A stretch of DNA of 64,000 nt from assembly GCA_018712275.1 (NCBI GenBank), contig DVHI01000030.1, positions 49,391 through 113,390 on the forward strand, read 5' to 3'. A program made the translations under genes and the position numbers. Under the pieces are notes generated by a model, which saw nothing but the letters and a program-made list of their open reading frames with translations, ran no database searches and was not told the origin of the DNA. This document shows positions 56,135 to 63,984 of the stretch, piece after piece. This DNA is from Candidatus Coprenecus avistercoris. Its GTDB lineage: Bacteria > Bacteroidota > Bacteroidia > Bacteroidales > UBA932. How positions within the stretch are numbered: position 1 is the first letter of the stretch; every line of letters begins with the position of its first letter.

Positions 56135-56142
56135 TATTTTTG
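56135..56142 (+). promoter_or_regulatory. -7 element of the propeller/caspase cassette
   Basis: TATTTTTG lies 23 nt before the ATG at 56166. The track's GTG start at 56142 overlaps it and is rejected. Confidence 0.55.
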
Positions 56143-56165: not shown

Positions 56166-58211
56166 ATGAGACTCCTATCTTTTCTATTCTGCGCATTGCC
56201 CGCGCTGGGGCTGGCGTGCGGCACTCTGCACGCACAGGACAAGTCCGCCCCGGACAGAGCGGTAACCATCAGCTCAGTATACAACACCGGCAATATCCTG
56301 TACAATCTGCAAGGCCACAGCAAGGAAGTCCTGGTCCTCAACCCGACCAGAGCCTCATTTGCCATCCTGTCCGGCAACGGTGACAGAATAACAGTCCTCT
56401 CCAACCGCAACCGCAGTGAGATCATCACCCGCCTCAGAAGCACAGGACACAGTTCCGCCTTTACCGCAGTCGCCTACACCCCCGACGCAAGGGAAATCAT
56501 AACGGCAGACGGCTCGGGAAAGATATCCACCTACAACACGGACGGATACACCCCCGTAACCTCATTCCAGACGGGACACACCTACAACCTTCTCGCCATC
56601 AGCCCCAACAAATACTACATAGCAGCTGCCAGAGGCAACGTCATGGACATCTGGGATGTCGGCATGACCGCCCTGAAAAAGACGCTGTACTTTGCTGGTC
56701 CGATAAACCACATAGTCTTCTCTCCCGACTCAAAGAGCATTGCAATCAGCAGCGACACTTCCGGACTCAACATTGTGAACGCGCTGAACTACAGCAGAAG
56801 ATCCGTGACCCGCAGTGCAGTCAATGTGCTCAGAGCCTCATTCCATCCGGACGGCAAGTACATAGCCTACGCCAAGGAGGACTCCGTAATCGTCTACAAC
56901 CTGCCCGGCCGCAAGGCCGTCCACCGGATCAGGGTCTCAAGCCAGGACAGGCGGCGCACCATACCCGCCGCTCTGGACTTCCAGAAGATAGACAGCATTG
57001 TATCCCTCATCTACATATCCCCGGAGAAATTCAGGTTCTGGGACATGTCCTCCCTGCCTCCGCTATACCAGGAGCTGCTGGATGACGAGGTAGACCGCCT
57101 GATGGCAGACTGGATACAGCAGATGGACGGAGAGTCACTTGAGGACTACCGGGTCAGGGTGACGGACGACAATGCAGCACGGCAGAAGGCCATGCTCCTG
57201 GACCAGGCCGCCACAGCCATTGCCTCCAGGACCATAAAGCTTGACGACCCGTTCATCGGGGAAACCTACGATACCGGCACCCGCACTATAGACATAACCT
57301 TCACGGATGCCGGAACCATACAGCTTGAAATACCGGAAGAGGATGTCGCAGAGCTCAGAACCGGCAGTCTTTCATTCGCGAATCCTGTCTACACACTGGA
57401 TGACAACGACGAGTTCAAGCTGGCATACCTGGAAGTGGTAAACGAGGTGACAGGCAAGACCTACGTCTTCGACCGGAGGAACTACATCATCAGGGACGTG
57501 GACTTCGGAGAGGAAGAAACCACTCCTGACCTGATACCGGTGACAATGCTCCAGACGGCAAACCTGGAGATGGAGGCCCTGCAGGAGGAAACACGCAGGA
57601 TCGTGGAAGAGAAAAAGCAGGAAAATGTCATAACCGACAAGACGGAAATCACCATCAGCTCGGAAATCCAAAGCGACTTCGACGCCTCTGGAAGGCAGAT
57701 ATACAACTACCTCCTCGGCTACCGGTACGATGTGTCCGAAGGTTTCTCCTACCAGGAGGACTTCGGCCCCGGGAAATTCAAGGTAGAGGAATCGAATGCG
57801 GCCCAGACCATGCTGGAAGCAATAAAGACAACTCTCGAGGGAAGCATGAGCAGGTACGCTGAAGAGGCGACGGCCATCGAGGTCACAATAACCGGAACAG
57901 CCGATGCCATACCTGTGGGCCGCATCCCTTACGACGGCTCCTGCGGAGAATACAACGAGACCCCCTACTACGCTAAAGAAGTACTCTCCAGCATGACAGT
58001 AACCGACAAGTCCGACATAAGGGACAATGAACAGCTGGCCTTTATCCGCGCAGCCGGAGTGAAGCTGTGGCTGGAGGATAATGTTGCCGTACTGAAGGAC
58101 AACAAGGACAAATGTAAGTACAATTTCAGAACGGAAGTAAGCAATATCAGAGGAGGAGAGTTCCGCAGGATCATAGTGGAAGTCAAATTCCGCGATATAC
58201 TTGAAAATTAA
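56166..58211 (+). CDS. Exported beta-propeller / OmpA-like protein, paralog 1
   Basis: The 681-residue protein starts at the ATG at 56166 with a signal peptide (LLSFLFCALPALGLACGTLHA). Residues ~30-300 look like a WD40-type propeller, with repeats such as AVAYTPDAREIITADGSGKI and IVFSPDSKSIAISSDTSGL. A charged middle region (DDNAARQKAMLLDQAATAIA) and a C-terminal domain of OmpA/MotB flavour (VTITGTADAIPVG, then DNEQLAFIRAAGVKLWL) follow. It is a close tandem paralog of the next gene. Function is unknown; I infer an envelope-associated partner of the caspase two genes on. Confidence 0.75.
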   Translation: MRLLSFLFCALPALGLACGTLHAQDKSAPDRAVTISSVYNTGNILYNLQGHSKEVLVLNPTRASFAILSGNGDRITVLSNRNRSEIITRLRSTGHSSAFTAVAYTPDAREIITADGSGKISTYNTDGYTPVTSFQTGHTYNLLAISPNKYYIAAARGNVMDIWDVGMTALKKTLYFAGPINHIVFSPDSKSIAISSDTSGLNIVNALNYSRRSVTRSAVNVLRASFHPDGKYIAYAKEDSVIVYNLPGRKAVHRIRVSSQDRRRTIPAALDFQKIDSIVSLIYISPEKFRFWDMSSLPPLYQELLDDEVDRLMADWIQQMDGESLEDYRVRVTDDNAARQKAMLLDQAATAIASRTIKLDDPFIGETYDTGTRTIDITFTDAGTIQLEIPEEDVAELRTGSLSFANPVYTLDDNDEFKLAYLEVVNEVTGKTYVFDRRNYIIRDVDFGEEETTPDLIPVTMLQTANLEMEALQEETRRIVEEKKQENVITDKTEITISSEIQSDFDASGRQIYNYLLGYRYDVSEGFSYQEDFGPGKFKVEESNAAQTMLEAIKTTLEGSMSRYAEEATAIEVTITGTADAIPVGRIPYDGSCGEYNETPYYAKEVLSSMTVTDKSDIRDNEQLAFIRAAGVKLWLEDNVAVLKDNKDKCKYNFRTEVSNIRGGEFRRIIVEVKFRDILEN

Positions 58212-58225
58212 TGTAAAATATTTAG

Positions 58226-58233
58226 TACTTTTG
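58226..58233 (+). promoter_or_regulatory. -7 element between the paralogs
   Basis: TACTTTTG lies 26 nt before the second paralog's ATG, with TTG 22 nt upstream. It may give the second paralog and the caspase their own transcript. Confidence 0.45.
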
Positions 58234-58259
58234 CACTTTTAAAAATCTTTATAAAAGCT

Positions 58260-60416
58260 ATGAAATTCCGAATCGCCAGAGTTATCGGGCTTCTTGCCGT
58301 AACCTTGTCATCAGCCGCTGCAGCGGCTTCCCTGGACACACTTGGAGTCCAGGAACAGGAGAAAGGTATCCGTGAAAGGTCCGAATTTTCCATCTCAAAG
58401 CCATACGATCTTTTGAAAATAAGCCGGTTCAGCATCATCTACAGGAGCGGGAACAACGGCATCTTCAATCTGATGAACCATCCTGTCTACAATTCCTACG
58501 TAGAGGATTTATACATCAACCCCACAGGCGCCTCCATTGCCATACTGCCCAAGAACCGCAGGGATCTCTCAATTATTTCCAACCGCATCGAGAATCTGAC
58601 CCTCGCGAACATCAAAGGTGAGCGCAAGACCGTACCCGGCACCTCCGGAAAGGAGAAAAAAGAGGTACCGGCCATAACAGCCGTCACCTATACATCGGAT
58701 GCCAGGGAAGTTCTGACGGCGAACAGCCTCGGCGAGATATCAACCTACTCCACCGACGGATACCATCTGATGTCCGTCATCAATACCGGTAAGACTTATG
58801 ACCTGATAGCCATCAGTCCCAACAAGTATTTCATAGCCGCAAGCCATGGCAGCGAGATGGATATCTGGAACGTGGAGACTGCCGACCTCAAGCGCATCGT
58901 CCGCTTCGCCGGCCGTATCAACCACATAACATTCTCCCCCGACTCAAGGGAAATCGCTGTAAGCTGCGACACTGCCGGACTGCATATTGTCAACTCCATA
59001 GACCACCGCCGCAACACCGTAACCAGAGGAGTACTTGATGTTCGCTGCGCATCGTTCCATCCGGAAGGCAAATACCTGGCTTACGCCAGAAAGGACTCTG
59101 TTATCGTATACAACCTTATCAACCGCAGCGTAGTATGCCGCCTCGGAAGCGCCTTCGGCTCCCCCCTTTCCAATATAATAACCCTCAATTTCCACGCGAA
59201 CAACGGAGTCGTCACTCTTAGCCACAACTCCGGCAACAAGGTGATATTCTGGGACATGACATCCCTGCCTCCCCTATATAAGTCCCAGCTCAGCGAAGAG
59301 GTGGACAAACTCATGACGGACTGGATACGCCAGATGGACGGAGAGTCGATGGAAGAATACCGTGTCAGGGTAACGGACGACAACGCGGCCAGACAGAAAG
59401 CCATGCTTCTGGACCAGGCGGCCACAGCCATAGCCACCCAGACCATAAAGCTGGAGAACCCCTTCATCGGTGAAGAATACGACTCAGAGAACCACGCTAT
59501 AGACATCAAGTTCAACGAGCTCAACACCATCAAGCTGGAGATACCGGAAGACGAGTTCAACGAAGTCCGGAACGGAAACCTCTCATACGAGAATCCCGTC
59601 TACACCCTGGATGAAAACGACGAATTCCAGCTGGTCTATCTAGAGGTGGTCAACGAGGCTACTGACAAGATATACATATTCGACAAGCGCAGCTACATCA
59701 TTGAGGATGTGGCCTTCGAGGACGAAGGCCTGGACTTCATCCCCGTAGCCATGCTGCAGACCGTCAATATGGAGATGGAGGCCCTGCAGGAACAGACACG
59801 TCAGATCATGGAGGAGAGAAAGCAGGAGAATGTCATTACCGACAAGACCGAAATCACCATCAATTCAGAGATTCAGAGTGATTTCGATGCGGAAGGCAAC
59901 AAGATCTACAACTACAACCTCAACTACCAGTACGATGTCTCGGAAGGCTTCTCCTATCAGGAGGACTTCGGTCCCGGCAAATTCATGGTGAACGAGTCCA
60001 ATGCAGCCCTCACCATGCTCGAAGCCATAAGGACGGCACTTGGAGGGGACATGAAGAAATACCTGGATGAGGCCAAGGCCATCGACATAACCATCACCGG
60101 TACGGCCGATGCCATCCCTGTAGGACGCATACCCTACGACGGGGCATGCGGTGAGTTCAACGAGACCCCCTATTATGCCAAGGACGAGCTCTCCAGCATG
60201 ACCGTCACTGCCGAGACAGACATACGCAACAACGAGCAGCTGGCCTTTATCAGGGCCGCCAGCGTGAAGACCTGGCTCGAAGACAAGGTGGAAGAGCTGA
60301 AGACCTACAAGGACAAATGCATCTACAATTACAGGACAGAGGTCAGCGATGTAAGGGGTGGAGAATTCCGCAGAATAATTGTGGAGATAAAGTTCAGGGA
60401 TATATTCAACGAATAG
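58260..60416 (+). CDS. Exported beta-propeller / OmpA-like protein, paralog 2
   Basis: The 718-residue protein has a signal peptide (VIGLLAVTLSSAAAAAS), a propeller-like N-terminal half (AVTYTSDAREVLTANSLGEI, ITFSPDSREIAVSCDTAGL), the same VTDDNAARQKAMLLDQAATAIA block as its neighbour and a C-terminal OmpA-like region. The paralogs are most alike in the middle and C-terminal parts and differ in the first ~100 residues. There this one has extra sequence, including KTVPGTSGKEKKEVP. The caspase gene follows 21 bp later. Confidence 0.75.
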   Translation: MKFRIARVIGLLAVTLSSAAAAASLDTLGVQEQEKGIRERSEFSISKPYDLLKISRFSIIYRSGNNGIFNLMNHPVYNSYVEDLYINPTGASIAILPKNRRDLSIISNRIENLTLANIKGERKTVPGTSGKEKKEVPAITAVTYTSDAREVLTANSLGEISTYSTDGYHLMSVINTGKTYDLIAISPNKYFIAASHGSEMDIWNVETADLKRIVRFAGRINHITFSPDSREIAVSCDTAGLHIVNSIDHRRNTVTRGVLDVRCASFHPEGKYLAYARKDSVIVYNLINRSVVCRLGSAFGSPLSNIITLNFHANNGVVTLSHNSGNKVIFWDMTSLPPLYKSQLSEEVDKLMTDWIRQMDGESMEEYRVRVTDDNAARQKAMLLDQAATAIATQTIKLENPFIGEEYDSENHAIDIKFNELNTIKLEIPEDEFNEVRNGNLSYENPVYTLDENDEFQLVYLEVVNEATDKIYIFDKRSYIIEDVAFEDEGLDFIPVAMLQTVNMEMEALQEQTRQIMEERKQENVITDKTEITINSEIQSDFDAEGNKIYNYNLNYQYDVSEGFSYQEDFGPGKFMVNESNAALTMLEAIRTALGGDMKKYLDEAKAIDITITGTADAIPVGRIPYDGACGEFNETPYYAKDELSSMTVTAETDIRNNEQLAFIRAASVKTWLEDKVEELKTYKDKCIYNYRTEVSDVRGGEFRRIIVEIKFRDIFNE

Positions 60417-60437
60417 GAAATAAATCCAACACGATAC

Positions 60438-63176
60438 ATGAAACACATACTATTGCTCACATTGTCCGTCCTGATGACAGCAGGAACCGGACTTTACGGA
60501 CAGGACTCCCAGTCCGTTCTGGCCAAGGCAAACCAGCAGTATGTACTGTATGAGAATGCCAAGGGAGACAACAGTGCCGAGATGTACGACCATCTCTATC
60601 AGAGCTATACCCTCTACGTCAGTCTGCTTGACGCCTACTCGGACCCCAATGCCATGGACGCTGCCAGGGCAAGGCTGCTCCAGATATACCCTGCGCTGAA
60701 GAATGCGGCAATGTTCTTCTCCAACATGAACGACTCGCAGATGGCCTACAAGTTCGGAATAGCCTACATAAAGCTGCCCAAGAACCCGACCCTCACCTCT
60801 GAGCCTCTGTTCAAGGACGAGCTATACCCGCAGATAGTGTACAACACCGGCATATCGGCCTACAAGCTTCAGAACATAGATGACGCCATTCTCTGTTTCA
60901 ATGAATACCTCGCCACAGGAGAGGCTGCAAGGGCCAAGGACTGCATCGTATTCCTGAATATGATCTACCTCTCCCGCCACAATTACGTGGAACAGGAGAA
61001 AATCCTCAAGAGAGCCATCGCCGAATACCCCAACACCCTGGACTTCTACTATAACCTCATAAACCTCTACATCTCTACCCAGAACCAGGCAGAACTGATG
61101 GCCACTATCGACAAGGTGCTGCAGGTAGACCCCAACGATGTCAACGTTCTTCCCATCAAGGCCAGGATGGAGGAAGCCTCCGGAAATGTGGAGGGAGCTC
61201 TCGGCATCTACAAGAAACTGCTGTCGTTCTTCCCCGATGATCTGGCCATCATGAAGGGAATCGCAAAATGCAGTTTCAAGATAGGCTCCGAGATCAACAA
61301 CCAGGCCTATGCTGTGGTCGACGAGGCTCAGGGGATGGAGCTCAAGCAGAAAGCCTACCCCTACCTCTTCGATGCAAGGACCTATTTTGAGAAAATACTG
61401 CGCCGTGAGCCCGACTCGCAGGTATACATGAAGGGTCTGGAGGAATGCTACAAATTCATGGACATGACCGCCGAGTCCACAGTCCTGATGAGCATCATCG
61501 CCGAAGGAGGCTCCTTCGACTCCTTCGACAAGAGGCTGCAGGACTACAACCAGCTGGCCCAGAGTATCGGAGCCGTGGACACTGTCGGTACAACAGCCGT
61601 ATTCGGCGGCGATCCTCCTGTCCTTACCACCCTCATCACGGGATTCACCGAGACCAACTCCAACAAGGTAATTGACGCCGGAGAGAGCTTCTCCGTGGAT
61701 ATCTCCATCCAGAACAGCGGTCTGGGAGACGCGCACAACGTAAAGGTCCTCCTCTCCGAAAACAGCGGAATGGACCGTTATTTTGAAGGCTCAAGGGAGA
61801 TAGACGCCGGCATCATCAAGGCCGGCGAGACCAAGAGCTTCACTTTCCGCTACACCCTCAGCGAGACAGCACCCACAGCCAAAGCCAACATCATAGTATA
61901 TACCCTTGAGGAAAACGGTATGGACGCCGACCCCTCCAGTCTTGTCGTCAACATTCAGGAAATGGCCCGTCCCCGTCTGCTGATAGCCGACTACCAGTAT
62001 ATGTCCGCCAGAGGAACCTCAATTACACTTGGAGACAGAGGACAGCTCATAGTCGCCGTACAGAATGCCGGCCGCCTTCCCGCCAGGAACGCAAAGATAA
62101 CTTTCGAATGTCCTACCAACATCATAGCCACCGACGAGGTGGAGATAGCAGTGGACTCCATACAGCCCGGAGAAGTAATTCCCCTCAGCTTTGACTTCCT
62201 GGTCAACAAGAGATTTGACCTCGACTCCATCCCCATCGCAGTGAAAATCACCGAAGGCTCGACATTTGCCGTCGTCCAGGACGTATTCAAGGTCAAGCTG
62301 GGAGAATATCTCTCAACCGCAAACAAGATAGTCATCGAAGGCAAGCTGGACGCACAGCCCGTCATTGACACCGACTTCTCCCTGGCCATGGAGTCCGAGC
62401 TGCTGGAGAACGTACCCGCCGGCATCTCCCACCCCAACCGCTACGCCCTGATCATAGGTAATGAGGACTACTCCAGAGTCGGAGGCGGGGCCGAGATCAA
62501 CGTGCCGTTCGCCTGCAACGACGCCATCGTATTCAAGGAATACTGCGTGCGCACTTTCGGAATACCCGATGACCACATCCGCTACATCGACAACGCCACG
62601 GCAGGACTCATGAGAGAGTCCATAGACTGGCTCATCAACGTAGGCAAGGCCAATCCCAATTCAGAGATATTCTTCTTCTACTCCGGCCACGGCAGCAACG
62701 ACGAGGCCTCCCGCGAGCCCTATCTGCTGCCAGTGGACGTATCCGGCAAATACATCAAGCTCGGTATTCCTCTCAACGACCTCTACGCCAAACTTTCCGG
62801 GGTACCATGCCAGGGTGCCTACGTCTTCCTGGACGCCTGCTTCAGCGGCGGATACAAGAGCAAGGATCCTATCGTAGCCCAGAAGGGCGTGAGAGTAGTT
62901 CCCAAGTACTCCATGCTCGGAGGCAAACTGATAAGCTTCTCCTCCAGCTCCGGAGAACAGACATCCAGCGTATACTACGACAAGCGTCAGGGATATTTCA
63001 CATACTATCTGCTCAAGACAATACAGGACGCAAAGGGCAATATCTCACTGGGAGATCTTTACAAGAAGACAAAAGAGCAGGTTGAGGCCGCCACAGCCGT
63101 ATCCGGCAAACTGCAGACCCCCCAGGTACTCGTATCGCCCGACTGGACTGACTGGAACACCAAGGTGCTCAAATAG
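60438..63176 (+). CDS. Exported TPR-CARDB-caspase family protease
   Basis: The 912-residue protein has a signal peptide ([18 protein letters not shown]), a TPR-like helical region (~25-380) and two CARDB-like beta domains (~390-510 and ~510-620). A C-terminal caspase (C14) domain (~665-905) completes it. The dyad is intact: H751 in [10 protein letters not shown] and C801 in [11 protein letters not shown]. Caspase-fold proteases of bacteria (orthocaspases) usually cut after Arg or Lys. It forms a unit with the two propeller paralogs, all three exported, so it probably acts in the periplasm or at the surface. smpB starts 28 bp later with its own promoter. Confidence 0.87.
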
Positions 63177-63654: not shown

Positions 63655-63984
63655 TCACAGGAACTTTGCAACCGAATGATTGTTGGTGATGTACTTAATC
63701 AGGAAAATCTGCTTCCCCTCAACCTCATAAACATTGTAAAAGACATACCAGCGAGTAGCACTACTCGACTTAAATACAGAATACAATAATCTCTGCCCGT
63801 ACTTTTCAAAATAAGCAGGAGCAGGAATCTTCACCTTTAAATGAAGATTATCGCGAATATCGTCAAGGAGATCCTCTACATAACTGAATGCACTGTCTTT
63901 AAAGCCGAAGTATCCTTTTTCATACAGAACATCCACCAGTGCATTAAAATAGCTTAAGACTTCCGGGGCAAAAATCACTCTCAT
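63655..63984 (-). CDS. RelE/ParE-family toxin
   Basis: The 109-residue protein reads as a ParE/RelE fold: MRVIFAPEVLSYFNALVDVLYEKGYFG at the start, a basic/aromatic core (SSSATRWYVFYNVYEV) and FLIKYITNNHSVAKFL at the end. Its antitoxin should lie upstream, beyond base 64000. The last 16 bases allow an upstream frame ending in TAG 3 nt before this ATG, which would fit a coupled antitoxin. It converges with smpB, with 3 bp between. Confidence 0.75.
   Translation of the reverse strand: MRVIFAPEVLSYFNALVDVLYEKGYFGFKDSAFSYVEDLLDDIRDNLHLKVKIPAPAYFEKYGQRLLYSVFKSSSATRWYVFYNVYEVEGKQIFLIKYITNNHSVAKFL

Follow-up and report, generated by a model that had tools for sequence, protein, structure and literature searches.

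Bacterial caspase homologues (orthocaspases and bacterial metacaspases, PF00656) have WD40 and TPR as their commonest partner domains, and the accessible part of the survey by Asplund-Samuelsson and colleagues notes probable signal peptides and extracellular roles (PMC3501461). Caspase-based conflict systems with OmpA effectors have also been described, resting on MoxR, vWA or STAND parts (PMC7159879). In type IX secretion, the periplasmic lipoprotein PorE (PG1058) joins TPR, propeller and OmpA_C-like domains in a single chain, whose Asp576, Asn584 and Arg591 hold peptidoglycan diaminopimelate (PMC7192894). Here we describe a locus with likenesses to all of these in a 64,000-nucleotide stretch of contig DVHI01000030.1 (positions 49,391 to 113,390; the window, hereafter, is this whole stretch), from the 2.0-Mb draft genome of the uncultured Bacteroidales species Candidatus Coprenecus avistercoris. 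Genes for two exported propeller proteins, P1 and P2, are followed there by a gene for an exported caspase-family protease; P2 and the protease recur in gut-type Bacteroidales as a pair that may be tethered to peptidoglycan. Most genomes compared are drafts, and all results are computed. The three genes are:

56166..58211, + strand: P1, exported WD40 propeller and OmpA-like protein, lineage-specific paralogue, 681 amino acids (open reading frame, Pfam, profile match, tree)
58260..60416, + strand: P2, exported WD40 propeller, dom1, mid and OmpA-like protein, core partner, 718 amino acids (open reading frame, Pfam, profile match, AlphaFold model, PDB matches)
60438..63176, + strand: exported TPR-CARDB-CARDB-caspase protease, 912 amino acids (open reading frame, Pfam, motifs)

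They are co-directional and all open, with intergenic gaps of 48 bp and then 21 bp, and are divergent from atpD/atpB; smpB starts 28 bp after the caspase gene. The arrangement given by a first-pass annotation of this DNA, two tandem exported propeller paralogs and then a caspase at 21 bp, was borne out by the reading frames, Pfam and the AlphaFold model.

As in the known bacterial homologues, some of which carry N-terminal export signals, the protease is of the C14 family with GHG and DACFSG motifs and has WD40 and TPR partners (PMC3501461, accessible part). Unlike in the caspases covered by that part of the survey, propeller and protease are here two exported proteins, and an OmpA-like domain on the partner is not listed there. 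The likeness to PorE includes TPR, propeller and OmpA_C-like domains and the same three peptidoglycan-contact residues; however, PorE is one lipoprotein, with a CRD and without a protease, whereas the locus described here divides the parts between two proteins, one of them a caspase as partner, and its propeller is a WD40 one with more blades. The vWA-MoxR/EACC1 systems likewise contain caspases, propellers and TPRs, and their iSTAND systems peptidoglycan-associated OmpA domains (PMC7159879), but here all parts are exported, and NF047832, with a score of 43, stays below its cut-off of 140. Beside the pair we found no MoxR, vWA, STAND, EACC1 or nuclease genes, the neighbours in the window being atpD, atpB and smpB, and PADLOC returned its generic caspase model only. 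Exported caspases and WD40-caspase fusions are already known, but we found no description of a wall-anchored propeller-OmpA/caspase pair in a literature search that left subscription papers outside.

Searches with P2 and its C-terminal half over relatives, the family and the order yielded 20 propeller genes with a readable downstream side. In 18 of them, from several families of Bacteroidales, the next gene encodes a TPR-caspase, the two remaining cases being P1 itself, which P2 separates from the caspase gene, and a solo gene in another species (G002), the one true exception. All ten N-terminal TPR-type caspases in the set of relatives adjoin a propeller, and the gaps between both genes are short or overlapping. 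The pair is syntenic in six species and recurs across the order, while the tandem duplication is local to the window genome. In species with this version, type A, the pair occupies one site next to atpD, with smpB behind in most. The same genus also contains a second version, type B, about 28% identical, in which dom1 replaces CARDB between TPR and caspase. Trees of the propeller (99/95), the caspase (100/100) and the TPR (99/97) share a deep split, separating type A of the window genus and L119, L121 and L124 from the rest, which indicates that both genes travelled together; the CARDB-versus-dom1 difference follows this split.

The co-conservation check that the first-pass annotation had proposed for all three genes therefore succeeded for P2 and the caspase and failed for P1. 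The three-gene cassette is rejected as the conserved unit, P1 being confined to the window genome plus, detached, one other species. It groups with the lone G002 gene (97/97), a position that marks it as a diverged duplicate outside the core. That solo P1-type propeller-OmpA gene (L056:1828-3858, also L074) lies beside infB and nusA, and no caspase gene is adjacent.

Promoter-like elements agree with a two-gene unit. TAnnTTTG, the Bacteroides -7 promoter motif, precedes P2 and each of its five orthologues by no more than 60 bp (6/6). The 120 bp upstream of the caspase gene contain it in 0/6 species, and 2.4% of random 120-bp windows have it. A sigma-70 scan gave no more matches than shuffled sequences. 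The elements in the window, all matches to TAnnTTTG, are:

56135..56142, + strand: -7 promoter-like element TATTTTTG ahead of P1
58226..58233, + strand: -7 promoter-like element TACTTTTG ahead of P2
63189..63196, + strand: -7 promoter-like element TATCTTTG ahead of smpB, which sets smpB apart from the unit

Since the element precedes the propeller gene and never the caspase gene, P2 and the caspase look like one transcript, and P1 and smpB, with elements of their own, like separate ones.

Both P1 and P2 consist of a signal peptide, a WD40 propeller (family matches in Pfam), dom1 (ES..EYR.RV), a region that we call mid, and an OmpA-like end. P2 has neither TPR nor lipobox, the TPR sitting on the caspase protein. 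Its AlphaFold model reaches a predicted local distance difference test score (pLDDT) of about 80-94 across the greater part of the propeller, whereas confidence is low in the linkers spanning residues 338-411, 478-494 and 619-656. Foldseek retrieved 1825 PDB matches at E<=0.001; among the matches listed nearly all are WD40 propellers, so that the list is uninformative on the OmpA-like part. The parts of P2 are:

58422..59273, + strand: WD40 propeller, residues 55-338 (profile match, AlphaFold model, PDB matches)
59277..59747, + strand: dom1 (ES..EYR.RV), found in other caspases directly upstream of the caspase domain (profile match)
59748..60071, + strand: mid region, which leads into the OmpA-like domain (profile match)
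60072..60407, + strand: OmpA-like domain, with D617, N658 and R665 matching PorE D576, N584 and R591 (profile comparison)
60123..60227, + strand: 35-residue insertion in the OmpA-like domain, between the Asp and the Asn (alignment; low pLDDT)

Export of every member, which had been proposed from the window alone, is supported by the orthologues. Among six species, identity over the first 22-24 residues is only about 40%, but the n/h/c layout (basic start, hydrophobic core) is kept in all of them, the pattern of real signal peptides. The ends are AxA/AQ or GQ, mostly AQ/GQ, and the distant pairs show the same layout.

Neither Pfam (PF00691 gathering score not reached) nor NCBIfam identified an OmpA domain in P1 or P2. 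Profile-profile comparison nevertheless recovered the OmpA-like C-terminus that had been read from the letters. A profile built from 23 domains, unedited, matched OmpA domains of the same genus at 92.5% and E 5e-7 (hhalign); the insert-free profile gave 94.9%, and its 20 column-shuffled controls no more than 0.7%. D617, N658 and R665 are invariant across the aligned members, and the Asn-Arg spacing is seven residues, as it is in PorE (PMC7192894). In the P2 model this end shows the expected alpha/beta order, with pLDDT mostly 60-87 outside the insert. Judging from the profile similarity and the three residues, the P2 C-terminus is a divergent OmpA-like domain and a probable envelope anchor, which by analogy with PorE would bind the wall.

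The annotated TPR-CARDB-caspase protease with an intact His-Cys dyad holds as well. Peptidase_C14 scores 69.2 bits against a gathering score of 21.4 (5.5e-19), TPR and CARDB are also above the cut-off in Pfam, and the catalytic motifs are intact (FFYSGH751G and LDAC801FSG), as is the dyad in 18/18 paired caspases. The parts of the protein are:

60495..61472, + strand: TPR-like region, residues 20-345 (Pfam, profile match)
61611..62357, + strand: two CARDB-like Ig domains, about residues 392-640 (CARDB 405-477 in Pfam, TIGR03900 404-619)
62415..63137, + strand: Peptidase_C14 caspase domain, residues 660-900 (Pfam, 5.5e-19)
62688..62690, + strand: catalytic His751 (motif alignment)
62838..62840, + strand: catalytic Cys801 (motif alignment)

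The solved structures closest to the caspase domain are metacaspases and MALT1, which cut after Arg/Lys. These closest solved relatives suggest Arg/Lys specificity for this caspase too. Orthocaspases likewise cleave after Arg/Lys (PMC6426788).

Selection differs along the two proteins. Among type-A orthologues the caspase domain has 90% mean identity and a ratio of non-synonymous to synonymous differences (pN/pS) of 0.10, the OmpA-like domain 82% and 0.19, and the propeller 65% and 0.36. The enzyme and the putative anchor appear to be kept while the propeller drifts, as would be expected of a surface whose binding partner itself changes.

Natural fusions are built from the same parts as the split form. 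A 733-amino-acid lipoprotein (G593, L127; signal LITGC) fuses mid, OmpA-like domain and caspase; the same join of OmpA-like domain and caspase is present at a contig end (G570, L129); and in another order SBBP propeller, mid, OmpA-like domain and caspase form one exported protein of 985 amino acids (G851, L174). An exported WD40-caspase fusion of 577 amino acids (L034, G050) likewise joins a propeller to C14, but without OmpA-like, TPR or CARDB parts.

Further genes accompany the caspases at other loci. An exported DUF4384-type protein is encoded directly after the caspase in four of them (L120:4631-5545, L124:11556-12494, L125:5695-6561 and L126:5168-6040), and directly after the fused OmpA-caspase gene at L127:5743-6666; it is likely a third component, missing from the window locus. 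A different third gene, also directly after the caspase (L057:13343-14224, L059:12194-13084, L060:3603-4484 and L118:5347-6183), encodes a small protein with a CarboxypepD_reg domain, then an apparent small outer-membrane barrel ending in Phe. In the same genus as the window, an unrelated exported caspase with WG repeats and CARDB (L065:5756-11781 in G017, L066:4556-9333 in G014) has DUF4384 and OmpA genes before it and, in L065, a second true OmpA gene after it, an independent OmpA/DUF4384/caspase grouping. Taken with the DUF4384 genes after paired caspases, this shows that OmpA anchor, DUF4384 and exported caspase meet repeatedly.

In P1 the corresponding domains are:

56265..57062, + strand: WD40-propeller domain (profile match)
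57867..58202, + strand: OmpA-like domain, D/N/R kept (profile match)

The window's own genome also encodes an exported WG-repeat caspase homologue (L177:1118-3121, contig C44; others at L136:4534-6492 and L137:5264-7246). In the three read, both catalytic residues are replaced (His by Gln, in YFSGQ/YSGQ, and Cys by Ser, in DASY); this conserved pseudo-caspase, which many other species in the genus have too, coexists with the active-type paired caspase. In another order, an exported MORN-repeat, OmpA-like and caspase-like protein (L175:5966-8323) has an altered dyad region (SSHG, DCCYT). Elsewhere in the window, at 63655-63984 (- strand), a 109-amino-acid protein resembles RelE/ParE-type toxins by eye and has a relative at the same locus in L052; a Pfam search with it gave zero matches.

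We consider it moderately probable that P2 and the caspase together are a periplasmic, peptidoglycan-tethered, Arg/Lys-type caspase-family protease, with the propeller as its recruiting or sensing part. The two genes would form a two-gene transcription unit, and both proteins would exit by Sec signal peptides. The OmpA-like domain of P2 would grip the diaminopimelate of peptidoglycan, fixing the complex to the wall, and TPR and CARDB (or dom1) of the caspase protein would dock on P2 and so bring the protease there. The fast-changing WD40 propeller might recruit a substrate or sense a partner, the caspase domain would cut after Arg/Lys, and P1, under a separate promoter, may be a diverged extra anchor or adaptor that serves this caspase too. 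Several points weigh against this: the OmpA-like domain stays below the Pfam cut-off and carries its 35-residue insertion near the predicted binding site, AlphaFold models the catalytic domain of the caspase protein poorly, and the family is patchy. Of 399 genomes in the taxonomic family, 16 gave any match (E<=0.001), several of which were weak hits of dom1 on other caspases, so that a general housekeeping function does not fit. The mid-OmpA profile is rare and matched, beyond Bacteroidales, 2/395 genomes of the class (the window's own aside), and zero genomes of the phylum sample besides the window's own. Our guess for the job is envelope-protein processing or surveillance rather than phage defence, which is made less likely by a site fixed among housekeeping genes and the generic PADLOC result.

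The first-pass annotation had left the paralogs as substrates, regulators or anchors of the protease. That the propeller protein is cut by the caspase, or silences it as an inhibitor, with P1 as a second substrate, would fit the close pairing, and the low-confidence linkers of P2 could be cleavable; but L127, L129 and L174 have the OmpA-like part joined directly to the caspase, which fits an anchor better, and the search for basic cleavage sites found none conserved across the family in the OmpA insert, where Arg/Lys at 623 varies in the alignment. We therefore find this improbable, and the OmpA-caspase and propeller-OmpA-caspase fusions favour an anchor or scaffold over a substrate. We hold equally low expectations of an extracytoplasmic self-killing or conflict system, in which a signal read by the propeller would activate the protease and the envelope would be destroyed. 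Caspases and OmpA and propeller parts do occur in described conflict systems (PMC7159879), the distribution is patchy and the propeller is the fastest-evolving domain; yet the pair keeps its place next to atpD from species to species, the genes alongside are atpD, atpB and smpB instead of MoxR, vWA, STAND or nuclease genes, and PADLOC offers nothing beyond its generic model.

That the module assists type IX secretion in the manner of PorE, its protease being a gingipain/PorU-like processing enzyme, seems very unlikely. The kinds of domains are those of PorE (PMC7192894) and a CarboxypepD_reg protein lies downstream at some loci, but the neighbourhoods read contain no por genes, the protease family is C14 and not C25, and type IX tail matches were weak, with none in the window's (incomplete) genome. 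The SprA control, meant to show type IX secretion in a genome, matched nowhere at all. About as unlikely are envelope proteins merely co-transcribed and with unrelated jobs, against which stand the recurrent adjacency, the co-divergence and the three fusions. Extending the tethered protease to a whole class of peptidoglycan-anchored caspase machines in the Bacteroidales periplasm, where a fast-evolving propeller receptor would sense a wall signal and switch on the tethered caspase, matching outside the cytoplasm the surveillance by caspases inside cells, is a tentative idea that we would rate as unlikely.

Bacterial caspases have been studied almost wholly as cytoplasmic enzymes of death or defence, even though surveys recorded export signals on many of them long ago. 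The module described here would give exported caspases a testable address, peptidoglycan, and a dedicated partner, and the natural fusions show which parts belong together, so that a role of caspases outside the cytoplasm becomes open to simple experiments.

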